Below, piece by piece: positions 3,536-46,752 of a stretch of 51,750 nt of DNA (position 1 is its first letter; each line of letters begins with the position of its first letter). The DNA is taken from positions 1-51,750 of the forward strand of contig JAJTCJ010000033.1 of assembly GCA_021323165.1 (NCBI GenBank). The letters run 5' to 3'. This DNA comes from Bacteroidota bacterium. GTDB lineage: Bacteria; Bacteroidota; Bacteroidia; 2-12-FULL-35-15. Position numbers and translations under genes: made by a program. The notes under the pieces are model-generated. The model did not search any database and was not told where the DNA came from. It worked only from the letters and a program-made list of their open reading frames with translations.

Positions 3536-4171
3536 ATGAAAAATATAATTCTCTTTTTACTATTTAGTTTTACTAGTGCTGTTTTCGCGCAAACCCCGAA
3601 AGGGTTTAATCCGATGAAAGACACCACCGGATTCAAACAAAAAATGGAATCTCAGTCGAAGCTTACTAACACAATTGAAAGCGATTTTACTCAGGAGAAG
3701 TATCTGAGTGTCATGTCTGAAAACATTGTTAGCAAAGGCCATTTTTATTTTAAAAAAACCAATATGCTTCGATGGGAATATACGAGTCCATATTCTTATC
3801 TTATTGTCATTAACAAAGACAAAATGTTCATTAAGGATAATGGCAAAGTGAATAAATACGATATCAACTCAAATAAAATGTTTAAAAGCATTAATGAGAT
3901 GATGGTGGCTACAGTTCAGGGAAACCTTTTAAATACTAAGGATTACCGGCCCAAATACTTTGAAAACGATAAGTTTTATCTGATCGAACTTACACCTGTT
4001 CAAAAAGCAACCAAAGATTTCCTGAAGAACATACTGCTTTATATCAATAAAACAGATTATTCTGTAGAGAAAGTAAAAATGACTGAACCAAGCGATGATT
4101 ATACCAGCATCGATTTTACCAATAGAAAAACTAACCATGCAATAGCTGATGAGAAATTTACTGTTAAGTAG
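3536..4171 (+). CDS. LolA-like outer-membrane lipoprotein carrier protein
   Basis: A 211-residue exported protein. Residues 1-18 form a signal peptide (MKNIILFLLFSFTSAVFA, then QTPKG). The body matches the LolA fold: a VSKGHFYFKKTNMLRWEY stretch followed by a YLIVINKDKMFI strand, as in carriers whose open beta-barrel holds acyl chains. A periplasmic carrier of this kind is standard in aryl-polyene and flexirubin clusters, where it is thought to carry the lipophilic pigment or a lipoprotein to the outer membrane; the cargo here is inferred. The last 23 bases overlap the start of the next gene in another frame, which implies translational coupling with that small lipoprotein. Confidence 0.82.
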   Translation: MKNIILFLLFSFTSAVFAQTPKGFNPMKDTTGFKQKMESQSKLTNTIESDFTQEKYLSVMSENIVSKGHFYFKKTNMLRWEYTSPYSYLIVINKDKMFIKDNGKVNKYDINSNKMFKSINEMMVATVQGNLLNTKDYRPKYFENDKFYLIELTPVQKATKDFLKNILLYINKTDYSVEKVKMTEPSDDYTSIDFTNRKTNHAIADEKFTVK

Positions 4172-4679
4172 TATTCTTTTTATAAGCTCTGCCTGCCATT
4201 TAGGACACTATAACAGGTTAAAGAAAATTGAGGCTAATTCTACAACCAGCCCTGCGCCTATTTTTGGCGATAATTTCAACTCTTTTCTATTTAAAACCAA
4301 TATTACAGTTTACGGTAAAGATTTCAGCGGATTGCTGGTCACCAAACAAATGTCACCGAAGAATTATCGAGTAATCTTCACCACTGAACTCGGTATGAAG
4401 ATCTTCGACTTTGAATTTAAGGATACCTCTTTCACTCTTCATTATTGCGTTCCACAATTTAACAGGCCTAAATTAATAAGCACCATTCAGGAAGATATTA
4501 AGATCCTGCTGATGAACGACTTGAAAAATAAAACATTCGAAAAACTGGCGGATAACAAAGGAATTTACCGGATCTACCGCAGCAAAACAGATAAAATGTA
4601 TGATTATTATTTTATAGAAGAAAGCACAAATCATTTAACGAAGATCGAACATTCTAAAAAACGTGTAAAAAAGATTTGA
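4149..4679 (+). CDS. Small predicted lipoprotein of the pigment cluster (LolB-like role possible)
   Basis: A 176-residue protein with a short lipoprotein signal (MRNLLLSSILFISSAC; lipobox cysteine at residue 16). I do not recognise a named domain. The rest is rich in short beta-strands (FGDNFNSFLFKTNITVYG, SGLLVTKQMSP, YRVIFTTELGMKIFDFEF), which would suit a LolB-like or DUF4292/3261-like half barrel. The gene starts at ATG 4149 inside the end of the LolA-like gene, and a LolA-LolB style pair is a plausible reading: the carrier hands its cargo to an outer-membrane acceptor. That is inference from position and from the lipobox. The protein ends in a very basic tail (HSKKRVKKI). Confidence 0.7.
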   Translation: MRNLLLSSILFISSACHLGHYNRLKKIEANSTTSPAPIFGDNFNSFLFKTNITVYGKDFSGLLVTKQMSPKNYRVIFTTELGMKIFDFEFKDTSFTLHYCVPQFNRPKLISTIQEDIKILLMNDLKNKTFEKLADNKGIYRIYRSKTDKMYDYYFIEESTNHLTKIEHSKKRVKKI

Positions 4680-12882: not shown

Positions 12883-13140
12883 TTATCTTATTAAATTGAC
12901 TTCACCGTTCATTTTCATTTCCGATCCGTCCATTACTTTTCCGTTAAAAATATAAATGTAAGTTCCTGCAGGCTGCTCTTTTCCTTTGTATGTACCATCC
13001 CACTTTATCGACTGATCTGCCGACATAAAGATCTGATTGCCCCATTCATTGAATACACGCAGCTCGTAAGAAGTGAAATTGCCGATCACATAGAAATAAT
13101 CATTCAGACCGTCATTGTTGGGAGTAAAACCTGTCGGAAC
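12883..13140 (-). other. CHU_C type B T9SS sorting domain (part of the giant protein)
   Basis: Residues 4500-4584 begin VPTGFTPNNDGLNDYF and contain ELRVFNEWGNQIF, WDGTYKGKEQPAGTYIYIF and a final GEVNLIR. This is the gliding-motility-associated C-terminal domain (TIGR04131 type) that directs proteins to the T9SS and to SprF-dependent surface display. Confidence 0.95.
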
Positions 13141-22100: not shown

Positions 22101-25100
22101 TTCGTGGACCTGCACATCCTGCTATAGTTGTTTGGAGATAATAAGTTGTAGTTGCTGATAAAACAGGCGTAGTATAACTTGCTGCAGTTGCAAGCAAAGT
22201 TCCTCCTGTTGCTGCGCTATACCATTGATATGTTCCTCCAGGAGCCGTTGCAGTTAAAGTTGCTGTTGATCCTGTACATATCCCTGCTCCTGAAGCTGTA
22301 GGCGCTGCAGGAACCGGACTTGTGGTAACCGTCACTGCTGTTCTAGGACCAGTACATCCTCCTACTGTAGTTTGAACATAAAAAGTTGTTGTTGAATTTA
22401 AAATAGGAGTTGTATAACTTGCTGTTGAAGCTAATAAAGTTCCTCCCGTTGCCGCATCATACCATTGATATGCACCACCCGGAGCTGTTGCTGTTAATGT
22501 AGTAGAAGTTCCAATACAAATTGTTCTGTTTGCAGCAGTAGGTGCAACAGGAATAGGATTAACAGTTACTGTAACAGCTGTTCTTGGACCCGCGCAGCCT
22601 GATACTGTTGCCTGAACAAAGTAAGTTGTTGTCGCTATTAAAGCAGGTGTTGTAAAGCTTGCACCTGTTGATAATAAGGTTCCACCTGTTGAAGCTGAAT
22701 ACCAATCGTATGTTCCACCCGGAGCTGTTGCATTTAATGTTGCTGTACTTCCGCTACATATAGTTGCACCAGTTGCTGTTGGCGCCACAGGTATTGGTGT
22801 CACAGTCACTGTTACTGCTGTTCTCGGACCTGTACAACCGCTGATAGTAGTTTGAACATAATAAGTTGTAGTTGCACTCAGCACAGGTGTTGTATAACTT
22901 GCTGCTGTTGCAAGCAATGTTCCACCTGTTGCCGCACTGTACCATTCATAAGTTCCACCAGGTGCAGTTGCTGTTAATGTTGTGCTGGTATTCTGACAAA
23001 TAGTTACGCCCGCTGCTGTAGGAGCTGCAGGTGTTGGTGTAACTGTAACAGTAACTGTAGTTCTCGGACCTGCACATCCGCTTACGGTAGTTTGTACATA
23101 ATAAGAAGTTGTTGATGCTAAAGCCGGTGTTGTATAACTTGCTGCTGAAGCAAGTAATGTTCCTCCGCTTGCAGCATCATACCATTGATAAGATCCTCCC
23201 GGTGCTGTGGCCGTTAATGTGGTGCTTGTACCCTGACAAATAGTTGCACCGGCAGCTGTTGGTGCGGCAGGTGTTGGAGTTACGTTTACTGTTACTGTAG
23301 TTCGCGCACCGGTACATCCGCCTACTGTTGTTTGCACATAATAAGATGTTGTTGCAGAGAGAACAGGTGTGGTATAACTAGTCGCTGTTGCGAGAAGAGT
23401 TCCTCCGGTTGAAGCATCATACCATGAATAAGTTCCGCCAGGTGCAGTTGCAGTTAGCGTGGTGCTTGTTCCCTGGCAAATTGTAGTTCCCGCAGCTGTC
23501 GGAGCCACAGGGATTGGATTAACAGTTACTGTAACAGCAGTTCTTGGACCGGCACATCCTGCAACAGTAGTTTGTACATAATATGTTGTAGTGGTTGTAA
23601 GAACAGGTGTAGTATAACTTGCAGCTGTTACTAAAAGAGTTCCACCTGTAGATGCTGTGAACCAGGCATAAGTTCCTCCGGGAGCTGTAGCGGTTAATGT
23701 TGCTGTACCTCCGCTGCAAATGGTTGCCCCCGAAGCTGTAGGAGCAGCTGGAACAGGACTTACCGTAACAGTCACAGCTGTACGCGGACCGGCACAACCC
23801 GAAACAGTTGTCTGAACATAATATGTTGTTGTTGAAGTTAAAACCGGAGTTGTATAACTTGCTGTTGACGAAAGTAAAGTTCCTCCTGAAGCTGCATCAT
23901 ACCATCCATAAGTTCCTCCCGGAGCTGTTGCTGTTAACGTTGCAGTTGTTCCGGTACAAATTGTTGTACCCGCTGCTGTAGGAGCTACAGGAGTTGGAGT
24001 TACTGTCACCGTAACTGCTGTTCGTGGACCTGCGCAACCTGAAACAGTTGATTGTACATAATATGTAGTTGTTGCAGAAAGAGCCGGAGATGTAAAACTT
24101 GAGCCTGTAAATAATGATGAACCTCCTGTTGAAACAGAGTACCAATCATATGTTCCACCCGGAGCAGTTGCATTTAAAGTTGCAGTTGAACCTTGGCAAA
24201 CCGTGGTTCCGGCAGCTGTTGGTGCAACCGGAATGGGTGTTACGGTTACAGTCACTGTTGTTCGTGGACCCGGACAACCACCAACGGTTGTCTCTACATA
24301 ATATGACGTAGTGGTTGTTAAAACCGGAGTCGTGTAACTAGCTCCGGTAGATAATAAAGTTCCACCACTTGCCGCATTATACCATGAATATGTTCCTCCA
24401 GGAGCCGTTGCCGTTAATGTTGCGGTTTGGCCTTCACAAATAGTTGTTCCGGCAGCTGTCGGAGCAACAGGTGTAGGAGTAACAGATACCGTTACTGCGG
24501 TTCTTGGGCCCGCACATCCGTTAATGGTTGACTGAACATAATAAGTTGTATTAGTTAAAAGAGCTGGTGTGGTATAAGAAGCACCAGTAAATAGTAAAGT
24601 TCCACCGGTAGAAGCATCATACCAATCATATGTTCCACCTGGTGCTGTAGCTGTTAAAGTTGCTGTAGTTCCCTGACAAATGGTTGTTCCCGGGGCTGTT
24701 GGCGCTGCTGGTATAGAGCTGACAGTAACTGTTACAGCTGTTCTAGGGCCGGTACAACCGCCAATGGTGGTTTGCACATAATATGTAGTTGTTGCTGTAA
24801 GAACAGGAGTAGTATAATTGGCTCCAGTTGCAAGTAATATACCACCTGAAGCAGCGCTATACCACTCATATGTTCCACCTGGGGCAGAGGCAGTTAATGC
24901 GGCTGAAGTACCTGTACAGATAGAAGTAGAAGCAGCTGTTGGAGCTGAGGGTGTAGGATTAGCAATTACAGTGACCGATGCCATAATGGGAGGACAACTG
25001 ATTGTTGCATCGGATACATTTACGGAATAGGTTCCAATAGAATTTACGATAATGGATTGCGTGGTTTGTCCTGAACTCCATGAATAAGTATAAGGCGGAG

Positions 25101-34258: not shown

Positions 34259-35788
34259 CTATCCTGTATATTCTCCAAAAACATTTCTCATTGTATCTGC
34301 TATTTCTCCTAATGTTGCATAGCTTTCAGCCGCTTCTAATATTGTCGGCATCAGATTTACATCAGCTCTTGCATTTGAATCTAATTTAGAAAGGATCGAT
34401 CTTACTTTTTCGTTATCTCTTTCTGATTTTATTTTATTGATCTTATCGATCTGTAATTGCCTGATTGAATCATCAACCGTAAAAATATCTTTTAATGGTG
34501 ATTCTTCCGAAGTAAATTTATTTACTCCTACAATTATTTTCTCTCCGGTCTGAATATCCTTCTGATACTTATAAGAGGATGCGGCAATCTCATTCTGCAG
34601 ATACCCCTGCTCTATTGCAGAAACTGAACCACCCATTGCATCTATCTTGCGGATATAATCCCATGCTGCAGCTTCAACTTCGTTAGTAAGTGATTCCACA
34701 AAATAAGAACCTGCCAGCGGATCAACAGTGTCTGCCGCACCGCTTTCATATGCAATGATCTGCTGTGTTCTTAAAGCAATGCGTGCAGCTTCTTCAGTTG
34801 GTAATGCAATAGCTTCATCAAAGCCATTGGTATGCAAGCTTTGAGTGCCGCCCAATACTGCCGATAATGCCTGAGTTGTTACCCGAATAATATTATTATG
34901 AGGCTGCTGGGCCGTTAGTGTAGAACCTCCTGTTTGCGTATGAAAATCTTTTGTAATCTTAGCCCACATTCTTCTTGCAGCGCGGAACTTTGCAACTTCT
35001 TCAAACAGATTATTATGAGCGTTAAAAAAGAATGAAAGTCTTTTAGCAAAAACATTTATATCCAGGCCCTTATCAATTGCCGCTTTTAAATACGCTTTTC
35101 CGTTTGCGAGAGTAAAAGCCAGTTCCTGAACAGCAGTTGAGCCTGCTTCACGGATATGATATCCTGAAATTGAAATAGTATTCCACTTAGGAACCTCCTT
35201 ACTGCAATATTCAAAAATATCTGTAATGATACGCATGCTTGGCTTGGGAGGATAAATATATGTTCCTCTTGCAGCGTATTCTTTTAAAATGTCATTTTGT
35301 ATGGTACCTGAGATCTTCTTCAGATCCGCTCCCTGCTTTTTTGCCAATGCAATGTACATCGATAAAAGAATCGAAGCAGTTGAATTGATCGTCATGGAGG
35401 TTGTGATATTCTCAAGCTTTATTCCATCAAATAATATTTCAATATCTCTCAGTGAATCTATTGCAACTCCTGCTTTCCCAACTTCTCCGTCCGCAAATTC
35501 ATGAGAACTGTCATAACCGATCTGTGTTGGTAGATCGAAGGCCACTGAAAGACCTGTAGTTCCGTTATTCAGAAGATAATGATATCTTTTATTTGATTCC
35601 TCAGCAGTTGAAAAACCAGCATACTGGCGCATTGTCCAGAACTTACTTCTGTACATTGTCGACTGAACACCCCGTGTAAAAGGAAATTCACCCGGCTGCT
35701 CCAAAGCAACCTCTGGTCGCGGATAAACACGCCTGATCTCAATATCCGAATCAGTTAAAAATTTTTCTTTGCGTTCTTTTTCTTCCAT
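34259..35788 (-). CDS. Methylmalonyl-CoA mutase catalytic (large) subunit, without B12 domain
   Basis: A 509-residue TIM-barrel mutase subunit. Conserved sequence includes [11 protein letters not shown] (Tyr56), the PSMRI segment with Arg186, and SGYHIREAG with His211. The tyrosine and arginine correspond to residues that set methylmalonyl-CoA specificity in the Propionibacterium enzyme, where isobutyryl-CoA mutases differ, so methylmalonyl-CoA is the likeliest substrate. The protein stops at the end of the barrel, so the adenosylcobalamin-binding domain must be a separate protein encoded elsewhere, as in two-part mutases. The reaction interconverts (R)-methylmalonyl-CoA and succinyl-CoA. It lies between the disrupted DUF7935-like gene and a response-regulator gene. 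Confidence 0.88.
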
Positions 35789-35882: not shown

Positions 35883-36315
35883 TTAAAATTCTTTACCTAT
35901 TTCTTTTTTAATTGTATCGATTGCAGCATGTGTAGGCAATACCGTAAGCTGAGCAGAAACAGCAAGTATGGTTTGTGCAAGCTCCATTCCTGTAGATTCT
36001 GCTGTTACTTTTGATGCCGAAACATTAATGATCTTGATTGTTTCTTCTTTTGCTTTTACAACAGCCTCCCAGGATTTAGTGCTCATATAGATCTGCTGTG
36101 ATAAATTGTGCTCAAATTCACTTCTGATCGTTTTAAGCAGCTCTGCCTGAAATATAGATGCACTTGTATTCTTATTAACACGCATAACCATATTTGAGAT
36201 CTACAGTCTTTTTTCTATTCTCATGATCCAAAAAGTTCTTCACCAAATAGTAAGTTGTAAGAAATACTATTCCTGCCGGTAAAATAATTTTCATTATTTC
36301 TAATGCCTCATCCAT
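35883..36315 (-). pseudogene. DUF7935-like protein gene, broken by an internal deletion and frameshift
   Basis: Two reading frames together look like one gene. The first runs from ATG 36315 to TAA 36175-36177 and encodes 46 residues: a membrane helix (IMKIILPAGIVFLTTYYLV), then KNFLDHENRKKTVDLK. The second, 36191 to 35883, encodes MVMRVNKNTSAS and continues with LLKTIRSEFEHNLSQQIYMS to the end. In the Bacteroidota family I recall, the membrane helix and basic segment are joined to the second part through a block of about 28 residues containing LQAYER and FLERI-P. That block is absent and the frame changes at the junction (about 36188-36202). I infer a deletion of roughly 80-90 bases. The family name is from memory; its function is unknown. 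The C-terminal frame could still be translated from ATG 36191 or 36185. Confidence 0.65.
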
Positions 36316-36441
36316 TTTTGATAGTTTTTCAGCCTGCTAATAGCCTGATTAGAGTTTTTGTTTCTGCGGGTTAAATATCGCAATATTTATTGACTTTTTA
36401 TACCAATATTTATTAAACTTGTGGGATCAAATATCAAAAAA

Positions 36442-36942
36442 ATGTATAGGACTATTAGTGATTTTATAACGGATTGGAAATACGAAGAAGAATCGACACT
36501 TAAAGTGTTTAGAAATATCAATAATGATTCTTTAAATAAAAAAGATAACGAAAATGTAAGAAGTATTGCAGTGCTTGCCTGGCATATTACTATAACCCTC
36601 AGTGAAATGCTTAACAAAGCGGGCCTTAAGGTTAGCGGACCTGATGAAAACAGCAAACCGCCTGCTGATATTTCTAAAATTATTTCTGCGTATGAAAGTT
36701 CATCTGCATCGGTTCTTCAACAGGTTCAGAAAAACTGGAATGATTCTGATTTGCTTGAAGAGATTCCAATGTATGGTGAAACCTGGAAAAAAGGAGTTGT
36801 ATTAAGCGTATTAATAAAACATCAGGCACATCACCGTGGACAATTAACTGTATTAATGCGTCATGCAGGACTGATTGTTCCCGGTGTATATGGTCCTTCA
36901 AAAGAAGAATGGGCCCAGTTCAATATGCCTGCAATGGATTAA
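36442..36942 (+). CDS. DinB-like putative metalloprotein
   Basis: A 166-residue four-helix protein of the DinB/YfiT type. The three metal-binding histidines are placed as usual: His48 (LAWHIT) and His127/His131 (KHQAHHRGQL), followed by LMRHAGLIVPGVYGP. Members are thought to be metal-dependent thiol transferases or related enzymes, and most have no known function. I use ATG 36442. A GTG at 36421 would add seven residues but overlaps TAAACTTG (36414-36421), one base from the TAnnTTTG promoter box, which argues for the later start. The gene is monocistronic and divergent from the broken gene at 36315. Confidence 0.83.
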   Translation: MYRTISDFITDWKYEEESTLKVFRNINNDSLNKKDNENVRSIAVLAWHITITLSEMLNKAGLKVSGPDENSKPPADISKIISAYESSSASVLQQVQKNWNDSDLLEEIPMYGETWKKGVVLSVLIKHQAHHRGQLTVLMRHAGLIVPGVYGPSKEEWAQFNMPAMD

Positions 36943-37008
36943 TAAAAAGTACTGAAATCCATTAATATATACTATTCTCATTTAGCGCCCGTTCAAATAA
37001 GATTTTAT

Positions 37009-37016
37009 TAGCTTTG
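37009..37016 (+). promoter_or_regulatory. -7 promoter element of the aminotransferase operon
   Basis: TAGCTTTG matches TAnnTTTG. Transcription would start near 37023. The in-frame GTG at 37016 is part of the box and so cannot be translated from this promoter; this fixes the start at ATG 37037. Confidence 0.65.
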
Positions 37017-37036
37017 TGGCGCTTAAAAAAATTCTT

Positions 37037-38230
37037 ATGAGTAAATTATCTGATCGAATTAATAATCTTGCTGAATCCCAAACTCTTGCAATGGCTAAAA
37101 AAAGCCGTGAATTACAGGCTGAAGGAAAGGACATTATAAATCTTAGTATCGGTGAGCCCGACTTTGATACCCCACAATTCATTAAAGATGCAGGAAAAAA
37201 GGCTATAGATGAAAATGTTACACGTTATACTCCTGTTGCAGGAATATTAGAATTAAGAAAAACGATTGCAGCTAAATTCAAACGTGATAATAATCTGAAT
37301 TACAATTTCGATCAGATCATAGTTTCTACCGGTGCAAAACAATCCATCGCCAATGTAATTCTCAGCATGATCAATCCTGGCGAAGAAGTGATCGTACCGA
37401 TACCTTATTGGGTAAGTTATATTGAAACTATAAAACTTGCTGAAGGAATTCCGGTAACCATACCAACAAGCATAGAATCTAATTTTAAGATCACTCCTGA
37501 ACAGTTAAGAAAAGCCATTACTCCTAAAACGAAAATGATGGTTTTCAGTACGCCTTGCAATCCAAGCGGTTCTGTTTATAATAAGGAAGAGTTAAAAGCT
37601 TTGGCAGCTGTGATCATTGAATACCCTGATCTATATGTAATTTCTGACGAGATTTATGAGTACATAAATTTTGGTGAAAAGCATGAAAGTCTGGCGCAGT
37701 TTGATTTTATTTATGAGCGCGTTATCACTGTTAATGGTGTGTCCAAAGGATATGCAATGACAGGCTGGAGGATTGGATATATCGGTGCGCCAAAATGGAT
37801 CGCTGATGCATGTGACAAAATGCAGGGACAATTTACTTCCGGAACTTCTTCTGTTTCGCAGATGGCAGCAATGGAAGGAATTAAATCAGAACCTTCTATC
37901 ACCTATAAAATGCGTGATGCTTTCAAGAAAAGACGTGATCTCGTTCTTGAGCTTATGAAAGAAATACCCGGAATGAAAACAAATATTCCTGACGGAGCAT
38001 TTTATATATTTCCAGACATCTCTTATTATTTTGGAAAAGCTTATGATGGTTATAAGATCAAAAACTCTAACGATCTGAGCATGTTCCTTCTTGAAATGGG
38101 AAATGTAGCCCTTGTTTCTGGTGATGCATTCGGAGATGATAACTGTATTCGTTTTTCTTATGCAACATCAGAAGACAAACTTATAGAAGCTGTTAAGCGA
38201 ATCAAGAACGCACTGGAATTGCTCAAATAA
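37037..38230 (+). CDS. Class I pyridoxal-phosphate aminotransferase (aspartate aminotransferase-like)
   Basis: A 397-residue fold-type I aminotransferase. The Schiff-base lysine is Lys237 in NGVSKGYAMTGWRIGY. Asn175 (PCNPSG), Asp204 and Tyr207 (SDEIYEYI) should contact the cofactor, and the second substrate arginine is in the NCIRFSYA segment near the C-terminus. The N-terminal SDRINNLAESQTLAMAKKSREL is typical of the thermophile-type (subgroup Ib) aspartate aminotransferases, which also use related amino donors. It would exchange amino groups between aspartate (or similar) and 2-oxoglutarate. Its stop codon overlaps the next start (TAATG), so translation of the heptose kinase gene is probably coupled to it. 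Confidence 0.9.
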   Translation: MSKLSDRINNLAESQTLAMAKKSRELQAEGKDIINLSIGEPDFDTPQFIKDAGKKAIDENVTRYTPVAGILELRKTIAAKFKRDNNLNYNFDQIIVSTGAKQSIANVILSMINPGEEVIVPIPYWVSYIETIKLAEGIPVTIPTSIESNFKITPEQLRKAITPKTKMMVFSTPCNPSGSVYNKEELKALAAVIIEYPDLYVISDEIYEYINFGEKHESLAQFDFIYERVITVNGVSKGYAMTGWRIGYIGAPKWIADACDKMQGQFTSGTSSVSQMAAMEGIKSEPSITYKMRDAFKKRRDLVLELMKEIPGMKTNIPDGAFYIFPDISYYFGKAYDGYKIKNSNDLSMFLLEMGNVALVSGDAFGDDNCIRFSYATSEDKLIEAVKRIKNALELLK

Positions 38231-39108
38231 TGAACATAAAGGAAATTTTCAATTCATTTAGTAAATTGAATGTTCTCATTATCGGTGACGTAATGATAGA
38301 TTCTTACATGTGGGGAAATGTAAACCGCATTTCACCTGAAGCACCGGTTCCTGTTGTTGCTGTCAGTAAAAAAGAAAATCGCCTTGGAGGAGCAGCTAAC
38401 GTTGCTCTTAATATTCAGGCAATGGGTGCAAATCCCTTATTATGCTGCGTGATTGGTGATGACGATAATGGAAAACTTTTTTCTGTTCTTCTAAAAAAAC
38501 AAAAATTATCTTCCGAAGGTATCCTTAAAAGTAAAAAACGTATAACCACCACTAAAACCCGTATTCTTGGGGGAAATCACCAAATGATCCGTGTGGATGA
38601 AGAAGACGACTCTTTAATAAATGACAGTGATACCAAACATCTTATTTCATCAGTAAAAAAAATGATCTCTTCAAAAAAAATTGATGTGATCATATTTGAG
38701 GATTATGATGCAACGCTTTTTAAACCGAATTTAAAGGAATTGAAAGAAGGCTTAAAAGTAGACTTCGATCACATGGATGTTAAAACACTTTCACAGGTCG
38801 TAGATAAATTCCTGAAAAAACAAAATATAGATTCGGCTCTTATCACTCTCTCCGAAAGAGGAGTTTATATAAACGATAAAAAAAACAAGGTGCTTATTCC
38901 TGCACATGTACGTGACATTACTGATGTATCAGGTGCAGGCGATACCGTTGTCAGCATTGCTGCATTATGCCTGGCAAGCGGATTATCATCCACAGCAACC
39001 GCTACATTAGCCAATCTGGCCGGTGGACTTGTTTGTGAAAAAGTGGGTGTAGTTCCCGTTAACAAAAAGGAATTACTTGAAGAAGCCCTTAAACTAAAAT
39101 TAAGTTAG
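38230..39108 (+). CDS. hldA: D-glycero-beta-D-manno-heptose-7-phosphate kinase, with an apparent 35-residue internal deletion
   Basis: A 292-residue PfkB-family kinase. The start (VLIIGDVMIDSYMWGNVNRISPEAPVPVV) is diagnostic for the RfaE/HldE kinase domain, and the catalytic aspartate is Asp238 in DVSGAGDTV. The product would make heptose 1,7-bisphosphate for lipopolysaccharide core; no cytidylyltransferase domain is attached. The odd point is at residues 157-163: EDYD is joined directly to ATLFKPNL. In E. coli HldE, SDYAKG and ATLLTPNL are separated by about 35 residues that form a strand-helix-strand with the conserved DPK motif. Here that segment is missing, in frame, so this copy is shorter than the usual ~325-330 residues and may be inactive, unless the sequence is misassembled. 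Confidence 0.88.
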   Translation: MNIKEIFNSFSKLNVLIIGDVMIDSYMWGNVNRISPEAPVPVVAVSKKENRLGGAANVALNIQAMGANPLLCCVIGDDDNGKLFSVLLKKQKLSSEGILKSKKRITTTKTRILGGNHQMIRVDEEDDSLINDSDTKHLISSVKKMISSKKIDVIIFEDYDATLFKPNLKELKEGLKVDFDHMDVKTLSQVVDKFLKKQNIDSALITLSERGVYINDKKNKVLIPAHVRDITDVSGAGDTVVSIAALCLASGLSSTATATLANLAGGLVCEKVGVVPVNKKELLEEALKLKLS

Positions 39109-39138
39109 ACATACCGGATCATCTCATTTAGAATTACA

Positions 39139-39867
39139 ATGACCAAACCCGTAACTCCATATAAAGATTCTAATTCCGGTAAAAAAGAACAGGTTGCTAC
39201 CATGTTCAATAATATTGCGCCTAAATATGATTTTTTAAATCAGCTTCTTTCTTTAGGGATTCACAAAGGATGGAGAAAAAAGGCAATACGGATGCTTAAA
39301 TCCGAAAAACCGGAAACCATCCTGGATATTGCTACAGGAACAGGTGATTTTGCTATTGAAGCTGTTAAGTTGAATCCTAAAAAAATTGTTGGAGTAGATA
39401 TTTCAGAAGGTATGCTTAAGATTGGTGTTGAGAAAATCAAAAAGCTGGATCTCGACAACCTTATAACTTTACAGGAAGGTGACTCTGAAAATTTAAAGTT
39501 TCCAGATAACAGCTTTGATGCGGTTACAGTTGGTTTCGGAGTCCGTAATTTTGAGAATCTCGATAAAGGAATTGCTGATATTTATCGTGTATTAAACAAA
39601 AATGGAACACTTATCGTTCTTGAATTTTCCAAGCCAAGAGCATTCCCGATAAAACAATTATATAACTTCTATTCACGCTTTGTTACCCCAACAATCGGCA
39701 CATTATTTTCTAAAGACAAATCTGCCTATAGTTATCTGCCTGAATCAGTGAATGCATTTCCTGACGGGGAAGATTTTTTAAATGTTCTTAGAAAAGCGGG
39801 GTTTAAAGGAGTGAGAGATACAAAAGTCGCATTTGGCATTGCATCCATCTATTTTGCGAAAAAATAA
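39139..39867 (+). CDS. ubiE: Demethylmenaquinone methyltransferase (UbiE/MenG)
   Basis: A 242-residue class I methyltransferase. SAM-binding motif I is DIATGTGDFAIEA at 63-75, followed by VGVDISEGML, and the family signatures are present: an early KKEQVATMFNNIAPKYDFLN and a later TVGFGVRNFENL with SYLPESVNAFPDGEDF. It should carry out the last step of menaquinone synthesis, methylating demethylmenaquinone; with menaquinone as the usual quinone of the phylum, menG is an equally fitting name. The gene lies 30 bases after hldA and 45 before porT, an order (ubiE then porT) that I know from other Bacteroidota. Confidence 0.93.
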   Translation: MTKPVTPYKDSNSGKKEQVATMFNNIAPKYDFLNQLLSLGIHKGWRKKAIRMLKSEKPETILDIATGTGDFAIEAVKLNPKKIVGVDISEGMLKIGVEKIKKLDLDNLITLQEGDSENLKFPDNSFDAVTVGFGVRNFENLDKGIADIYRVLNKNGTLIVLEFSKPRAFPIKQLYNFYSRFVTPTIGTLFSKDKSAYSYLPESVNAFPDGEDFLNVLRKAGFKGVRDTKVAFGIASIYFAKK

Positions 39868-39912
39868 AATAACTTTACAAACTTTGCGTTAGAAAGCGCT
39901 GATATATATATT

Positions 39913-40623
39913 TTGAAAAAAACTATAAAATACAGTCTACTTCTTTTAACTCTTTTATCACCCTTGTTCTCTGATGCCCAGGAACAGAGAGGGAATCTGA
40001 GCAACTATTATCAGGAACGTCTGCATTTTGGTTTCACATTGGGCGTGAACAGAAGTAATTTTATTATTCACACGACTGAGCATTTTGAACGTTTCGATAG
40101 TTTAAAATGGGTAAGATCTTCTCCAAAAACAGGATTTAACCTTGGAATAGTTTCCGAATTAAAACTTCATACTTACATTACACTTCGTTTTGTTCCAAAT
40201 CTTTCATTTGCGGAAAGGAATCTTCAGTATTATTTTGAAGGCCAGGATACGATCGTACGCACTAAATCAATCGAATCAACCTTTCTTAATTTCCCGCTTG
40301 ATCTGAAAATCCGTTCAAAACGCGTTGGTAATTTTGGTGCTTATATTCTTGCAGGCGGAGGTTACAGCCTTGATCTCGCTTCGAAACGTAAGGTGCAGAA
40401 CAGTACGGGCACGGATGCGATCGTGAAATTAAAGCGCGATGATTTTTCTTATGAAGTTGGTGCAGGTGCTGAATTTTATCTTGAATATTTCAAGTTTGCA
40501 ATTGAAGGTAAATTAAGTATTGGAACCACCAATCTATTAATAAAAGACAACACAGTTTTCTCGGACTCCATTGATAAACTCAATTCTAAGATCTTTTTGA
40601 TCTCTATCACTTTCGAAGGATAA
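39913..40623 (+). CDS. porT: PorT-like T9SS/outer-membrane beta-barrel protein
   Basis: A 236-residue barrel protein with a signal peptide (MKKTIKYSLLLLTLLSPLFSDA, then QEQRG). The mature part begins LHFGFTLGVNRSNFIIH and contains ITLRFVPNLSFAERNLQYYF, matching PorT/SprT, a protein required for type IX secretion in Porphyromonas and Flavobacterium. The barrel ends in a terminal ISITFEG. Its position directly after ubiE is the usual one. The start is TTG 39913; no ATG precedes the signal peptide, so TTG is needed. The gene is followed by 362 non-coding bases. Confidence 0.85.
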   Translation: MKKTIKYSLLLLTLLSPLFSDAQEQRGNLSNYYQERLHFGFTLGVNRSNFIIHTTEHFERFDSLKWVRSSPKTGFNLGIVSELKLHTYITLRFVPNLSFAERNLQYYFEGQDTIVRTKSIESTFLNFPLDLKIRSKRVGNFGAYILAGGGYSLDLASKRKVQNSTGTDAIVKLKRDDFSYEVGAGAEFYLEYFKFAIEGKLSIGTTNLLIKDNTVFSDSIDKLNSKIFLISITFEG

Positions 40624-40667
40624 GTTATGGATAGCGAATTCCCGCATTTACGAGTTGTGTTGTATAC

Positions 40668-40701
40668 GTCATTGCGAAGGCTTTTCGCCTGAAGCAATTT
40701 C
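40668..40701 (+). repeat. GTCATTGCGA palindromic intergenic element
   Basis: GTCATTGCGAAGGC, a short TTTTC loop, then GCCTGAAGCAATTTC. ATTGC pairs with GCAAT and AGGC with GCCT, giving an imperfect hairpin. It has the same layout as the elements at 40754 and 43933: GTCAT, palindrome, then an AT-rich end. Confidence 0.65.
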
Positions 40702-40753
40702 AACGTTAGAAAAAGAATCTTTAAACTTTATAATATTTATCACAATGTACTTT

Positions 40754-40781
40754 GTCATGCTGAGCGCAGCCGAAGCATCTT
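40754..40781 (+). repeat. GTCATGCTGAGC palindromic intergenic element
   Basis: GTCATGCTGAGCGCAG followed by CCGAAGCATCTT. ATGCT pairs with AGCAT around the interior. I recognise this sequence type as a dispersed intergenic repeat seen in many bacterial genomes; a weaker copy lies at 27481-27507. Confidence 0.65.
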
Positions 40782-40942
40782 CTTAAAAACGGAGATGAAT
40801 TTAATGTGAGATTTATTCATAAATGAATTGATAATACAGGCTCTGTCCTTGATAGGTCAAAAAGAAGCCGCAGATTCGCAGATTTTTAATCGGGCAGATT
40901 TTATCGCTTCGCGATAGATTCAGAGATGTCCGCTTTTTTCCT

Positions 40943-40950
40943 TAATTTTG
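40943..40950 (+). promoter_or_regulatory. -7 promoter element of the FAD-dependent protein gene
   Basis: TAATTTTG matches TAnnTTTG, 35 bases before ATG 40986. Predicted transcription start is near 40957. No TTTG at the proper -33 distance. Confidence 0.55.
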
Positions 40951-40985
40951 CAACACTGCACGATAAACACGTGCCTGAATAAAAA

Positions 40986-42569
40986 ATGAAGAACGAACTC
41001 TCTCTCGTTGTTTCTCCCGAAGAAGCAGTAAACGAAATCCTCCTGAAGGAAATAATAGCCCATCAGCTTTTCTGCAAATCTTCTGCAATTACTTTTTTCA
41101 AGATCCTAAAACGATCAGTTGATGCACGTTCCAGGAATATTAAGATCAATCTTAAAGTGGAAGTATACATCAACGAAAATCCTCCCGCTCCTGTAAATTA
41201 TAAAATCAATTATCCTGATGTAAGCACTAAGACACCTGTGCTTGTTATCGGTGCCGGTCCGGCCGGATTATTTGCCGCTCTGCAGCTTATCGAGAACGGA
41301 TTGAAGCCTGTCATCATTGAGAGAGGAAAAGACGTTAAAAGCCGCAGAAGAGATCTTGCAGCAATTAACAAAGAACACATCGTTAATCCTGATTCTAATT
41401 ATTGCTTTGGTGAAGGTGGTGCCGGGACATACAGTGATGGTAAGCTATACACTCGTTCCACCAAAAGAGGTGATATAAATAAAGTACTTGAAACTTTTGT
41501 GGCTCATGGTGCTGATGAAAACATACTGGTTGAAGCACATCCTCATATTGGAACTAATAAATTGCCGAAGATAATTCAGGCCATGCGCCAAAGCATTGTG
41601 GACTCAGGCGGAGAAGTTCATTTTAATACCAAAGTTGTAGATCTGATCATAAAAAACAATTCGGTCAAAAGTGTTGTATGCGATGATCTTATTGAAAATA
41701 CGTCAAGAGAATTTAATGCGGATCATTTGATACTTGCAACAGGACACAGCGCCAGAGATATTTTTGAATTGCTGCATAAAAAGAATATCCTCATTGAGGC
41801 AAAAACATTCGCGATGGGTGTTCGTGTTGAGCATCCTCAATCATTGATCGACAGTCTTCAATACCATTGCAGCATCAGTGAAGTACAAAAAAAGCGGGAT
41901 CTTCTTCCTGCTGCTTCTTACAGCATGGTTCACCAGGCACTGGGAAGAGGCGTTTATTCTTTCTGCATGTGCCCGGGCGGTATTATTGCTCCATGCGCAA
42001 CATCTCCCGGAGAAGTTGTTACAAACGGCTGGTCTCCTTCAAAGCGAAATAATCCTTTTGCAAATTCCGGTATAGTTGTTACAATCGAACCGGAAGATTA
42101 TTTAAAATATAAAAGCGATGGACCTCTTGCAGGACTCCGTTATCAGCAGGCTTTAGAACGAATGGCCTGGAAAGCAGGCGGAGAAACACAAACTGCTCCG
42201 GCACAACGTCTCGCAGATTTTGTAAATAACAGCCTCTCCTCTACTCTGCCTGATGTGTCTTATCAGCCTGGAATTAAGTCGGCACCCCTTCATACTTTAT
42301 TACCTCCTGAGATCGGGAAACGTTTACAATTAGGATTTAAGGAATTCGGAAATAAGATGCGCGGGTATCTTACAAATGAAGCGGTAATTGTTGGTGTAGA
42401 ATCCCGAACTTCTTCTCCGGTAAGGATTCCAAGAAACAATGAAACGCTGCAGCATCCTCAGATCAAAGGTCTCTATCCATGTGCTGAAGGGGCCGGTTAT
42501 GCAGGAGGAATAGTTTCTGCGGCTATTGACGGACAAAAATGTGCGAAGGCAATAGCATCAGTTATTTAA
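40986..42569 (+). CDS. Uncharacterised FAD-dependent dehydrogenase (COG2509-like)
   Basis: A 527-residue flavoprotein. About 75 N-terminal residues (with the FFKILKRSVDARS segment, as in the family's small leading domain) precede the FAD-binding motif VLVIGAGPAGLFAAL, followed by IIERGKDVKSR. Also typical are NYCFGEGGAGTYSDGKLYTR and the C-terminal GLYPCAEGAGYAGGIVSAA. Proteins of this group are widespread and have no settled reaction. The gene has its own promoter and is followed 3 bases later by another promoter box, so it is probably transcribed alone. Confidence 0.87.
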   Translation: MKNELSLVVSPEEAVNEILLKEIIAHQLFCKSSAITFFKILKRSVDARSRNIKINLKVEVYINENPPAPVNYKINYPDVSTKTPVLVIGAGPAGLFAALQLIENGLKPVIIERGKDVKSRRRDLAAINKEHIVNPDSNYCFGEGGAGTYSDGKLYTRSTKRGDINKVLETFVAHGADENILVEAHPHIGTNKLPKIIQAMRQSIVDSGGEVHFNTKVVDLIIKNNSVKSVVCDDLIENTSREFNADHLILATGHSARDIFELLHKKNILIEAKTFAMGVRVEHPQSLIDSLQYHCSISEVQKKRDLLPAASYSMVHQALGRGVYSFCMCPGGIIAPCATSPGEVVTNGWSPSKRNNPFANSGIVVTIEPEDYLKYKSDGPLAGLRYQQALERMAWKAGGETQTAPAQRLADFVNNSLSSTLPDVSYQPGIKSAPLHTLLPPEIGKRLQLGFKEFGNKMRGYLTNEAVIVGVESRTSSPVRIPRNNETLQHPQIKGLYPCAEGAGYAGGIVSAAIDGQKCAKAIASVI

Positions 42570-42572
42570 TAT

Positions 42573-42580
42573 TAACTTTG
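42573..42580 (+). promoter_or_regulatory. -7 promoter element of the YvlD-like gene
   Basis: TAACTTTG matches TAnnTTTG and lies 3 bases after the upstream stop codon and 18 before ATG 42599. Predicted transcription start near 42587 leaves a leader of about 12 bases. It rules out starts inside the upstream gene. Confidence 0.65.
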
Positions 42581-42598
42581 CAAAAAAATATTAATTAT

Positions 42599-42964
42599 AT
42601 GAAGTTTTTAATCCAACTTGTAATTTCTACACTCGCTGTTTTGATAGCCTCCTACATTTTACCCGGAGTAAATATAAAGGACAATAGTTTTCTGACAGCA
42701 TTGATTGTTGCCGCTGTCCTTGCTTTTTTGAATGCCGTTATAAAACCGATAATGATCATCCTTACTATTCCAATAACTGTAATAACTCTGGGGTTATTCC
42801 TGCTTGTGATCAATGCTTTGATGATACTCCTTGCTGCCAAGATCGTAGATGGATTTCATGTCGATGGTTTTTGGTGGGCACTTTTATTTAGTCTAATACT
42901 TTCACTGGTTACTTCTATACTTGAAGGAATTAAGAAGCGCGATGAGAACGAAGGTGGAATTTAA
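42599..42964 (+). CDS. Small four-helix membrane protein (phage-holin 4 superfamily, YvlD-like)
   Basis: A 121-residue integral membrane protein with four hydrophobic helices: residues 4-24 (LIQLVISTLAVLIASYIL), about 32-50, 56-84 (with the KPIMIILTIPITVITLG signature) and 94-112. The N-x-x-I/L-K-P-I motif between helices 2 and 3 (LNAVIKPIMIIL) is characteristic of the YvlD/Phage_holin_4_2 family (PF04020). Despite the family name there is no sign of a prophage here, and the role is unknown. ATG 42599 is preferred because it follows the promoter box at 42573. Confidence 0.87.
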   Translation: MKFLIQLVISTLAVLIASYILPGVNIKDNSFLTALIVAAVLAFLNAVIKPIMIILTIPITVITLGLFLLVINALMILLAAKIVDGFHVDGFWWALLFSLILSLVTSILEGIKKRDENEGGI

Positions 42965-43017
42965 ATTTCTGTTTTCAATTTATAACAAATAAACTAATAA
43001 CCTTTTACAATAAAAAC

Positions 43018-43851
43018 ATGATCCAGGTAGGCCGTTACAACGAATTGAAAGTGCTCAAAGAGATGGATTTCGGTATTTATCTTGGTGATGGTTCCTATGA
43101 GATCCTGATGCCTACAAAGTGGGTTCCTAAGGATACACAGATCGGTGATGTGATGGATGTTTTTGTTTTCAGAGATTCTGAAGGAAGATTAATTGCTACT
43201 ACAGTTAAACCGTATGCACTGGCAGGAGAATTTGCTTTTCTGGAAGTTCAGCAGGTAAATAATACCGGTGCTTTCCTTGATTGGGGAATGGAAAAAAACC
43301 TGATGGTTCCCTTCAGGGAACAACCTGTTCCAATGGAAGAAGGAAAAAGCTATGTTGTGTATGTGTATGTTGATGAAGAAACAGATCGTATCGTGGCAAG
43401 TGCTAAACTAAATAAGTTCATTGAGCGTGAGGATATAGATCTTATTGAAGGAGATATTGTGGATCTTCTGATCTATTCAGAAACTGATAAAGGTTTAAAT
43501 GCGATCATTAACAATACCTACCAGGGACTTATTTACAGAAACGAGATCTTCGATAATGTACGTATTGGCGACAGAGTAAAAGGATATGTTAAGGTCGTAC
43601 GCGAAGATAACAAGATCGATCTTTCTTTGCAGAAAAGCGGTTATGAGTTAGTGGATGATGTTAAATGGAAGATCCTGAACCTTCTTAAAGAAAAGAATGG
43701 CTTTCTCCCGCTTCATGACGGTAGCTCACCTGAGGAAATCAAAGCAGCTCTGCAGATCAGCAAAAAGGCATTCAAAAAAGCTGTTGGCGCACTTTACAAG
43801 GAACAGCTTGTTAAGCTTACTCCGAAGGGTGTCGAGTTGATCAGAAGATGA
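43018..43851 (+). CDS. cvfB: S1-like RNA-binding protein CvfB
   Basis: A 277-residue protein with three tandem S1-like OB folds and a C-terminal winged helix. The N-terminal VGRYNELKVLKEMDFGIYLGDG, the second-domain NTGAFLDWGMEKNLMVPFREQ and the third-domain VRIGDRVKGYVKVVREDNKIDLSL are all characteristic of CvfB/YitL, and the end (LQISKKAFKKAVGALYKEQLVKL) forms the winged helix. CvfB binds RNA and affects virulence-factor expression in Staphylococcus; its role in this phylum is not established. The gene stands alone between the YvlD-like gene and rlmH. Confidence 0.9.
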   Translation: MIQVGRYNELKVLKEMDFGIYLGDGSYEILMPTKWVPKDTQIGDVMDVFVFRDSEGRLIATTVKPYALAGEFAFLEVQQVNNTGAFLDWGMEKNLMVPFREQPVPMEEGKSYVVYVYVDEETDRIVASAKLNKFIEREDIDLIEGDIVDLLIYSETDKGLNAIINNTYQGLIYRNEIFDNVRIGDRVKGYVKVVREDNKIDLSLQKSGYELVDDVKWKILNLLKEKNGFLPLHDGSSPEEIKAALQISKKAFKKAVGALYKEQLVKLTPKGVELIRR

Positions 43852-43853
43852 TG

Positions 43854-43901
43854 TACCGATTTATTGATTTACCGATTTGTTGATGTACTGATTTGCCATT
43901 T
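43854..43901 (+). repeat. 16-bp tandem repeat, about 2.6 copies
   Basis: TACCGATTTATTGATT, TACCGATTTGTTGATG, then TACTGATTTG with a diverged end. The array starts 3 bases after the cvfB stop. Its unit length is the same as that of the duplication at 1490-1521, although the sequences differ. Confidence 0.7.
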
Positions 43902-43932
43902 AGCATCCTTTGAACCCAATTTTCTTAAGAAC

Positions 43933-43966
43933 GTCATCCCGTGCCCCGACACGGGATCTTCATGAC
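43933..43966 (+). repeat. Intact GTCATCCCGTG palindromic intergenic element
   Basis: GTCATCCCGTG (43933-43943), a six-base loop CCCCGA, then CACGGGATCTTCATGAC. TCCCGTG pairs with CACGGGA (7 bp), and the outer GTCAT pairs with ATGAC. No T-run follows, so it is not a standard terminator, but it lies between convergent cvfB and rlmH. A decayed copy lies at 3461-3487. Confidence 0.7.
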
Positions 43967-44005
43967 ACATTGCAGTATTAATCCGCATATCGGTAAATTT
44001 ACAAA

Positions 44006-44479
44006 TCAGATATGATGATAAGGTTCATTCTTCAATATCGTCATTGCCCTGTAAACTTGCTCAATAAAAAACAACCTTACCATCTGATGAGAGAATGTCA
44101 TTTTTGATAAAGACAATTTACCATTCGCTCTTTTGTAGATCTCCTCAGAAAATCCGTAAGGCCCCCCAACAACAAACACAAGATTCTTGATCCCTGAATT
44201 CATTTGCTGCTGGATAAAGCCGGAAAAACCAACAGAATCATATTCTTTTCCATTTTCATCAAGAAGGATCACTTTATCAGGATTCTGCAAATGCTTCAGG
44301 ATCAATTCTGCTTCCTTCTGCTTTTGCTGTTCAATACTTAAGGCCTTCGTGTTCTTTAATGCAGGAATCACTATTGTTTCAAAGGAGATATAATGTTTTA
44401 AACGCTGCTCATAAACTGCAAAACCTTTTATTATATGATCGTCTTCTGTTTTGCCGTTAAGAATAAGTGTGATTTTCAT
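44006..44479 (-). CDS. rlmH: 23S rRNA pseudouridine-1915 N3-methyltransferase RlmH
   Basis: A 157-residue SPOUT (knotted) methyltransferase, the normal length for RlmH. The SAM-binding knot is formed by NLVFVVGGPYGFSEEIY and LSLSKMTFSHQMVRLFFIEQVYRA, and the protein ends in the invariant NEPYHH-type tail (NEPYHHI). It methylates pseudouridine 1915 in helix 69 of 23S rRNA in assembled ribosomes. The gene has its own promoter box at 44527-44534 (minus strand), which overlaps the region of a plus-strand promoter for the divergent DUF4783-nadC genes. Confidence 0.95.
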   Translation of the reverse strand: MKITLILNGKTEDDHIIKGFAVYEQRLKHYISFETIVIPALKNTKALSIEQQKQKEAELILKHLQNPDKVILLDENGKEYDSVGFSGFIQQQMNSGIKNLVFVVGGPYGFSEEIYKRANGKLSLSKMTFSHQMVRLFFIEQVYRAMTILKNEPYHHI

Positions 44480-44510
44480 GGAATGATACTATTTACATGC
44501 AAAAAAACTA

Positions 44511-44518
44511 TATTTTTG
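44511..44518 (+). promoter_or_regulatory. -7 promoter element of the DUF4783-nadC-yihY operon
   Basis: TATTTTTG matches TAnnTTTG. Predicted start is near 44525, leaving about 87 bases of leader before ATG 44612. The leader contains a 19-codon open frame (44553-44612). Confidence 0.6.
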
Positions 44519-44526
44519 TGTGAAAG

Positions 44527-44534
44527 CAAAGATA
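44527..44534 (-). promoter_or_regulatory. -7 promoter element of rlmH
   Basis: On the minus strand TATCTTTG matches TAnnTTTG, 48 bases upstream of the rlmH ATG. Only 8 bases separate it from the plus-strand box at 44511-44518, and the two promoters point towards each other. Confidence 0.6.
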
Positions 44535-44552
44535 ACCATTAGAATTCATCAA

Positions 44553-44612
44553 ATGGCTAAAAGTGCAGACTGGCTTAATTATTGCAAACTATTCAGCAAA
44601 TTAAATTTCTAA
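44553..44612 (+). other. Possible 19-residue leader ORF
   Basis: MAKSADWLNYCKLFSKLNF, with stop TAA at 44610-44612 overlapping the ATG of the DUF4783 gene (TAATG). The same stop-start overlap joins other gene pairs in this window, so coupling is possible. An ORF this short can arise by chance. Confidence 0.3.
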
Positions 44613-44978
44613 TGAAAACCAAAGCAGTCATTGCATTATTTATCATCGCTGTTGATTGACGATATTGCTTCCGCGATCCGTTCCGGAAATCCTAAGAACA
44701 TTTCTAAATTTTTTATTGAAAATATAGATCTTAAAGTAATTCAGCAGGAGGACGTTTACAGCAAACAACAGGCTGAAATGATCCTGAAAGATTTCTTTAC
44801 AAAGCATGCAGTAAAAACTTTTACTGTTGCTCATAAAAGTGAGCCTAAGAACGGATCTCAATATGTGATCGGAACCCTTGAAACCAGTAATGGTAAATTC
44901 AGAACTTATTTTCTGATAAAACCATCCGGTTCTCAGACACTCATACAGCAATTTAGAATTGAAACTGAAAATGAGTAA
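44612..44978 (+). pseudogene. DUF4783 domain protein with a frameshift in the signal peptide
   Basis: From ATG 44612 the frame gives MKTKAVIALFIIAVD and then a TGA at 44657-44659. The DUF4783 domain itself is intact but in the +1 frame from about 44655: IDDIASAIRSGNPKNISKFF, then AEMILKDFFTKHAVKTF, GTLETSNGKFRTYFLI and LIQQFRIE up to the stop at 44978. The first frame looks like the start of a signal peptide, the second like the mature protein, and the end of the signal peptide (cleavage region) is missing. A loss of a few tens of bases, or a single-base error near 44650, would explain this. A TTG at 44631 is the only start in the second frame and would give no proper signal. DUF4783 has no known function. 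The 3' end overlaps nadC by 8 bases. Confidence 0.7.
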
Positions 44979-45843
44979 AACGATCAATCCTGAAAAACTT
45001 TATAATTTTAATATCAACGAATTTATCTCCCACGCTTTAGCTGAGGATATAGGAGATGGTGACCATACTTCTCTTTCATGCATCCCTTCTTCAGCAAAAG
45101 GAAAAGCTCAGCTTCTTGTTAAAGAAAACGGAATTTTGGCAGGTGTCGAGCTTGCGTTAAAGATCTTTAAAGCTGTTGACCCATCACTCAAAGTAAAAGT
45201 GCTGCTGAAGGATGGCAGCGAAATTAAAATTAGTGATATTGTTCTTACCGTTACTGGAAAATCACAATCTATTCTTATTGCAGAACGTCTGGTCCTTAAC
45301 TGCATGCAACGGATGAGCGGTATTGCTACTAAAACCAATATGCTCGTAAAGCTTTGTAAAGGGACTAAAACAAAGGTTATTGATACAAGAAAAACAACCC
45401 CAACAATACGCGGACTCGAAAAGTGGGCAGTAGTTATTGGTGGTGGCGCGAATCACAGGATTGGTTTATATGACATGATTCTTATCAAAGACAATCATAT
45501 TGATTATGCTGGCGGTATAAAACAATCCATTGAAGCAGCAAACATTTACCTCAAAGCCAAAAAGAAGAAACTCAGAATAGAAATTGAAGCCCGCAATATT
45601 GAAGAAGTAAAACAGATCCTTGAAGTTGGGAAAGTTCACCGAATCATGCTGGATAATTTTAATTATGCTGATATCCGCAAAGCAGTCAAAATGATCGGAG
45701 GCAAATATGAAACTGAAGCATCAGGCGGGATCAATGAAAAAACTATCGCGGAATATGCAAAATGCGGAGTAGATTTTATTTCAGTTGGCGCCCTTACACA
45801 CAATATTAAAAGTCTTGACCTAAGCTTAAAAGCTATCAAATAA
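44971..45843 (+). CDS. nadC: Nicotinate-nucleotide pyrophosphorylase (carboxylating)
   Basis: A 290-residue quinolinate phosphoribosyltransferase. Catalytic and phosphate-binding residues are evident: RMSGIAT at 114-120, DTRKTTPTIRGLEKWAV from 138 (Arg140, Lys141, Arg147), NHRIGLYDMILIKDNH from 161 (His162, Arg163, Lys173), then IEIEARN and MLDNF, and a phosphate-binding EASGGI. It converts quinolinate and PRPP to nicotinate mononucleotide in de novo NAD synthesis. ATG 44971 is used; it overlaps the DUF4783 stop by 8 bases. Its own stop overlaps ATG 45843 (TAATG), so the three genes appear translationally linked. Confidence 0.94.
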   Translation: MSKTINPEKLYNFNINEFISHALAEDIGDGDHTSLSCIPSSAKGKAQLLVKENGILAGVELALKIFKAVDPSLKVKVLLKDGSEIKISDIVLTVTGKSQSILIAERLVLNCMQRMSGIATKTNMLVKLCKGTKTKVIDTRKTTPTIRGLEKWAVVIGGGANHRIGLYDMILIKDNHIDYAGGIKQSIEAANIYLKAKKKKLRIEIEARNIEEVKQILEVGKVHRIMLDNFNYADIRKAVKMIGGKYETEASGGINEKTIAEYAKCGVDFISVGALTHNIKSLDLSLKAIK

Positions 45844-46752
45844 TGGAGTTAAAGCATACAAGGCGACTGATAAAACTTAAACCGGCTCACTCACTTGTTA
45901 AAGGCACTGTATGTAGTTTCCAAGTTTTTTTTTAAAGCCATGAAAAATGGTTCTTTAAACATGAGAGCTACATCCCTTGCATTCAGTTTTTTTTTAGCAA
46001 TCTTCCCTTCTATTATTTTTTTATTTACCCTCATTCCATACATTCCTATAGATAATTTCCAGGACCAGTTATTTAATATGCTTCAAAGCGTTATGCCTAA
46101 AAGTGCATTTGAAGCAACAGAAGACACTATTGCAGATATAATTAAAAAACCCAGAAGCGGCTTGCTTTCATTTGGATTTATAACTGCTTTGTATTTTTCC
46201 ACAAATGGATTCAATGCAATGATCAATGCTTTTAATGAGACATATCACACCATTGAAACACGTCACCCGATTATGCAGCGACTTGTATCTTTGATCATGG
46301 TTTTTGTGACTGTAATTATGCTTACCATTGCAATTCTGCTTATAATTTTCAGCGAAATCGGGTTCAATAAGCTGATACGCGGTGATGATGCGTTGTATTA
46401 TCTGTTATTGATCGGTAAATGGTCTATCCTATTTATTCTGTGTTTCTGTCTGATATCATTCAATTACTACATAGGACCGAAACGCAAGAGAGGGTGGAGA
46501 TTTTTTTCTGCAGGATCAATGTTCGCAACCCTACTCATAGGCGCGGCATCCTTTGCTTTTGCATATTATGTAAATAATTTCGGGGAGTACAATAAACTTT
46601 ACGGTTCTATCGGAACCCTTATTGTTATTATGATGTGGATCTATATTAATTCGCTGATATTACTTCTTGGTTTTGACCTGAATGCAAGTATTCATACCGC
46701 CAAGAACATCACAACTTATAATACGAGTATTTCTGATCTTAAACTTAAATAA
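45843..46752 (+). pseudogene. YihY/BrkB family membrane protein with a disrupted 5' end
   Basis: The family body is complete from about 45910: YVVSKFFFKAMKNGSLNMRA, FSFFLAIFPSIIFLFTLIPY and five further helices, ending in an ALIVIMMWIYIN-like segment (TLIVIMMWIYINSLILLLGF). Its frame has only a TTG (45895) as start. The natural start is ATG 45843, which overlaps the nadC stop; that frame reads MELKHTRRLIKLKPAHSLVK and stops at 45933-45935. Relatives begin with a similar basic segment, followed by an LPGF-type sequence that is missing here. A loss of about 30-50 bases near 45900 would explain the data; a one-base error in the run of nine T (45925-45933) is an alternative but would join less typical sequence. 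YihY proteins are inner-membrane proteins of uncertain function. The 3' end overlaps terC by 8 bases. Confidence 0.72.

Follow-up and report, generated by a model that had tools for sequence, protein, structure and literature searches.

Genomes of host-bound bacteria that decay with a deletion bias carry many broken genes, nonsense changes and small indels, with essential genes spared. Passages of Chen et al. (2020, Genome Res., PMC7111523) describe unsupported local sequence within the scaffolds of metagenome-assembled genomes (MAGs), report that errors in uncurated MAGs pass incomplete or incorrect protein-coding sequences to databases, and voice the suspicion that such errors are prominent in IDBA-UD assemblies. 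The paper on Kastor (PMC12007338) concerns gene-fragmenting errors of long-read assemblies and the detection of false frameshifts via related proteins. The sequence considered here, referred to as the window, is the whole of contig C29 (51,750 bp) of a Bacteroidota draft genome (G000; 4,017,970 bp in 171 contigs, completeness 89.6%, contamination 0.48%), in which several genes, among them hldA, yihY and a methylmalonyl-CoA mutase gene, lack short internal stretches relative to their orthologues. Many broken genes are common to this draft and to decaying genomes, but the small indels and the spared essential genes of such decay do not fit what is seen here. Long-read errors of the Kastor type are reportedly mostly indels of 1-2 nucleotides (nt), whereas the losses in this draft are of tens of bases and small frame-changing indels private to it are rare. 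The local MAG errors (PMC7111523) were recognised by absent read support while those reported here are known from sequence comparison, and the passages shown do not mention a single genome with numerous blunt losses of 25-183 nt that leave no N. No paper describing precisely this pattern was turned up by a literature search, a negative of little weight.

An initial annotation, made from the sequence alone, had placed internal losses in the DUF7935 gene, hldA, the DUF4783 gene and yihY. When the window proteins were compared with those of six same-genus genomes the same four losses were seen together with two more. Nucleotide alignments with the orthologues in two references of the same genus (G009 and G010) agreed with the four places and confirmed that three of these genes change frame and that hldA remains in frame. 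The losses were short, as proposed, but measured 26-111 nt rather than 20-105 bases, and all six window losses were of identical size against G009 and against G010 (Table 1). Reading frames elsewhere had been considered sound, a view contradicted by the losses of 70 nt at 4677 and 36 nt at 34946 and by hits on 7 of the 18 other contigs that gave alignments. Genes totalling 390.7 kb, from 19 contigs including the window, could be aligned to at least one reference, and among them 18 losses of 25-183 nt were observed on eight contigs, 11 of them frame-changing and seven in frame, compared with six in frame expected from blind placement. These losses are very probably errors of the draft assembly that are absent from the organism. 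This reading of the sequence comparisons is favoured because the losses are blunt, limited in size and clustered, occur in one draft alone, respect neither frame nor essentiality, and are accompanied by hardly any small indels. As in an assembly error, the sequence departs from close relatives and conserved genes are broken, with neither frame (7/18 in frame) nor essentiality (leuS, trpS and ftsX) respected.

The genes hit include leuS and trpS, encoding leucyl- and tryptophanyl-tRNA synthetases, which are essential genes. The sole leuS gene found in the whole draft, on contig C106, has a 32-nt loss splitting it into frames of 140 and 825 amino acids (aa). It has also lost a further 183 nt, and with them 61 residues at most of which G009 and G010 agree. 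In the six same-genus genomes searched, leuS has open frames of 904-1204 aa. On the same contig ftsX has lost 60 nt, corresponding to most of the N-terminal hydrophobic segment of FtsX, and trpS on contig C8 has lost 128 nt with a change of frame, a further trpS copy in the draft being possible. The three losses on C106 lie at 19660, 20005 and 21152. The ileS and secA genes gave long matches in single frames. There was no match to rpoB or rpsC in the draft although its completeness is 89.6%, and the bin may lack some of the ribosomal and polymerase operons. The rpoB match in G009 (contig C2, 80199-83534) stops at the contig end (83534), and one stretch of it (profile 807-1154) lies in a different frame with two stops.

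Within the window, hldA has a near-identical intact counterpart. The window HldA has 292 aa, compared with 329-334 aa in the six same-genus relatives. When a collection of 5.8 billion protein sequences was searched, the window's own product was the sole 292-aa HldA among the best 120 of 8000 matches. The nearest relative among the matches listed (P0002, from a JGI metagenome) is full length at 329 aa and is identical to the window protein at 286/292 residues (98%) outside one clean gap of 37 aa. The best NCBIfam match of P0002 is D-glycero-beta-D-manno-heptose-7-phosphate kinase, at 336.2 bits just below the curated cut-off of 345, and the solved kinase 4e84 aligns through the stretch absent from the window protein. 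The missing hldA piece was sought elsewhere in the draft assembly and was not found. The mutase has 509 aa versus 520-541 aa in the 120 relatives listed, which are at most 93% identical with the gap counted and do not include the window product. Its 12 missing residues align with a solved mutase directly before the FHCQT/FHTQT segment (FHTQTGG). Both the HldA and the mutase losses would be expected to abolish function. The best relatives of the yihY product have 308-310 aa and are 86-88% identical. The DUF7935 gene is divided into a 5' part at 36315-36193 and a 3' part from approximately 36212 down. The DUF4783 gene retains an ATG at 44612, the relatives' start position, but in a frame different from that of the body, and its loss appears to fall inside a signal peptide. 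An intact open reading frame (ORF) of 4584 aa occupies 12883-26637 on the minus strand; parts of it match large proteins of genome G002 at 26-47% identity in repeated stretches, and, for want of orthologues to align, it lies outside the loss comparison.

Table 1. Losses in the window (window coordinates) and on other contigs of the draft
Gene or contig	Coordinates	Strand	Junction	Missing (nt)	Frame	Remark
ORF of 176 aa, no Pfam family	4149..4679	+	~4676/4677	70	changed	G009/G010 orthologues 210 aa
Methylmalonyl-CoA mutase large subunit (PF01642)	34259..35788	-	~34945/34946	36	in frame	
DUF7935 gene (PF25589)	35883..36315	-	~36193	86	changed	two frames
hldA/rfaE domain I kinase (Pfam PfkB)	38230..39108	+	38709/38710	111	in frame	37 aa missing
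DUF4783 gene (PF16022)	44612..44978	+	~44652/44653	26	changed	
YihY/BrkB family membrane protein (PF03631)	45843..46752	+	~45904-45907	38	changed	near 5' end
Contig C11				49, 112		
Contig C25				98		
Contig C28				99		
Contig C33				94, 93, 126		
Contig C106				32, 183, 60		
Contig C8				128		
Contig C27				25		

The draft was sampled non-randomly, 956 kb being taken from 46 contigs, many represented only by their first 20 kb. The sample comprised the first 20 kb of C1 to C44, the long contigs C33, C34 and C11 in whole, and contigs C2, C26, C37, C61 and C106, added for their tRNA synthetase or secA matches (C106 after the hint of a split gene); the G009 and G010 stretches were partly picked by synteny. 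An early scan with a single reference had covered only 85 orthologues. A hand filter kept 14/19 deletions of at least 20 nt against G009 and 13/16 against G010, and the 183-nt leuS loss, which the alignment splits, was added by inspection. Ten of the 18 losses pass the filter against both references, and the 183-nt leuS loss was seen against both by eye. Candidates dropped were 27 nt on C12 (listed twice, in frame in an acidic low-complexity stretch), 807 nt on C33 and 279 nt on C26 (large proteins judged repetitive), 21 nt on C26 (by hand), 20 nt on C33 (at a gene start), 26 nt on C34 (flanks barely above threshold) and 21 nt at window position 42188, seen only against G009, those bases being absent from G010 also. 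What looked like lesions at three further sites (C11 65.2-66.9 kb, C33 88.3 kb, C36 17.5 kb) was put down to natural variation or start-site differences. A protein encoded at approximately 65150-66263 on the minus strand of C11, which we take to be an adenylate kinase from its sequence, has a long lysine/alanine-rich, histone-H1-like tail, the length of which differs between the draft and G009 (orthologue of 410 aa).

Indels were counted as private when one genome's indel of 20 nt or more was seen against both other genomes. Eight such deletions and no insertion were observed in the draft, whereas under the same filter G009 had no deletion and one 21-nt insertion and G010 had neither. None was found in 32 of 48 contigs taken from other genomes as controls, namely those with 3 kb or more in alignment (264 kb and 294 genes in all), where approximately 12 would be expected at the rate of the draft, or approximately 4 with the window left out of that rate. 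Recall of simulated deletions under this filter was 73/113 in the draft and 133/289 in the controls. The sole frame-changing private gap of less than 20 nt in the draft was a 2-nt insertion, and frameshift lesions of 1-2 nt beside larger deletions, as would mark pseudogenisation, were otherwise not seen among the private gaps; a longer list of gaps against a single reference holds many compensating pairs, not settled one by one.

No letter N was present in the 862 kb checked. At 13 junctions the similarity between flank and missing segment was that of the null (5.81 vs 5.82 of 12, P 0.50), relatives' DNA being used in place of the missing bases, which blurs short repeats; the direct repeats of repeat-mediated or slippage deletion were not found at these 13 junctions. 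Hairpins at the missing stretches showed no bias (mean z -0.08, 21 alignments). Assembly would have been interrupted for some tens of bases at many points, probably at coverage drops or strain differences. The two edges would then have been abutted directly, the intervening bases being omitted and no N inserted, and we infer as the cause a blunt join across the gap, made in scaffolding, gap closing or N removal. Assemblers commonly join contig tips by overlap, and an artefact could also have arisen by another route, in which short direct repeats were collapsed or tips overlapped by at least 10 bases were wrongly joined. Both sides of the FtsX junction, which is outside the 13 tested, look slightly alike by eye, but the tested junctions showed no more flank similarity than random deletions with relatives' DNA as a stand-in, and the missing HldA segment does not look repeat-like, so that this route is improbable. 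The initial annotation's suggestion of local assembly collapse is accordingly retained as to assembly error, which is strongly favoured, but is not supported as to merged repeats, since the tested junctions show no flanking repeats.

A real deletion process in the lineage, by error-prone end joining or a mutator producing blunt losses of 25-183 bp genome-wide, is very unlikely. The junctions are without homology, as in end joining, eight losses are private to the draft against both references, and the draft encodes a Ku homologue on contig C16. However, G009 and G010 also encode Ku and lack private deletions of at least 20 nt, contrary to what non-homologous end joining would predict, and the near-identical HldA of P0002 is intact. 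Bacterial mutation spectra are dominated by small indels; a single small frame-changing indel is private to the draft. Two losses fall in the sole leuS and one in a trpS gene, and a real burst of deletions is disfavoured because the damage to leuS would be lethal. The other possibility raised at the outset, a real deletion process in this region, finds little room, since the losses are draft-wide, frame-blind and twice in leuS, with almost no small frame-changing indels. The Ku homologue itself (C16, 20856-21386, minus strand) is patchy among relatives, being found in 7/21 genomes searched. Equally unlikely is a mixture of coexisting strains that carry deletions, with the assembler following the deleted path. 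The assembly is indeed a draft of 171 contigs and the losses are local and clustered (with an upward sampling bias), but such a mixture requires many independent strain deletions, blind to frame and in essential genes, with the deleted allele picked every time. It is most implausible of all that a natural population underwent a recent burst of blunt, homology-free, clustered deletions of 25-183 bp, its DNA coming largely from non-viable cells or from polyploid cells complementing their broken essential genes.

The losses are spread unevenly over the draft: their density is 6 in 31.8 kb of the window, the remaining 359 kb holding 12 (binomial P 0.002), and five pairs lie within 1.5 kb of one another versus 0.97 expected (P 0.004). 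This clustering counts in favour of assembly error, but both P values are optimistic and the densities inflated, because the window was selected on account of its losses and C106 was added when a split gene was suspected there. The window is thus denser, as the initial annotation had implied in drawing attention to 10 kb, but the losses are not restricted to it, and no loss was kept in the 57.5 kb aligned on C34. A number of observations weigh against assembly error or reduce the force of the evidence for it. Seven of the 18 losses rest on a single reference, and the 93-nt loss on C33 rests on one 90-aa gene that is 59% identical. In the yihY search the 270-aa product of the window represents four member sequences, of which the other three may be independent shortened copies or may be fragments. 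A cruder census, of genes whose alignment did not run from one end to the other, gave no excess: the counts, entries not each inspected, were 18/169 and 15/185 in the draft, with 18/149, 12/145 (G009 and G010 against each other), 16/186 and 11/168 in the four control comparisons. A coding-frame hidden Markov model (HMM) run over 643 kb likewise gave no excess of frame changes, with 19.7 per 100 kb in the draft versus 3.3 to 26.7 in six controls, and 2.3 versus 0 to 5.0 per 100 kb when no stop was nearby. This HMM called the C25 loss and 0/4 of the frame-changing window losses, which are near gene ends, and it is counted as insensitive. Frame-changing deletions were also seen in G009, of 35 nt against the draft and 23 nt against G010, neither being seen against both, and the draft has three frame-changing insertions of 20-26 nt against G009 (on C26, C33 and C34), none of which is listed against G010, the C26 insertion lying where there is no G010 stretch.

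On balance assembly error remains the preferred explanation, and the shortened products of hldA, yihY, the DUF4783, DUF7935 and mutase genes and the ORF at 4149-4679 are best marked in annotation as probable artefacts of assembly and not as real proteins. The initial annotation had warned that the truncated heptose kinase, and membrane proteins that have been shortened, might otherwise be recorded as real, and this warning is judged right. Extrapolation gives approximately 185 losses over the 4.02 Mb of the draft, or approximately 105 with the window and C106 left out (9 in ~343 kb). The completeness and contamination figures of the draft are fair, but completeness scores are blind to errors of this kind. 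Inferences of pseudogenes, truncated enzymes or gene loss drawn from this draft would mislead, a risk made worse by the seven in-frame losses, and the whole draft is to be treated with care.

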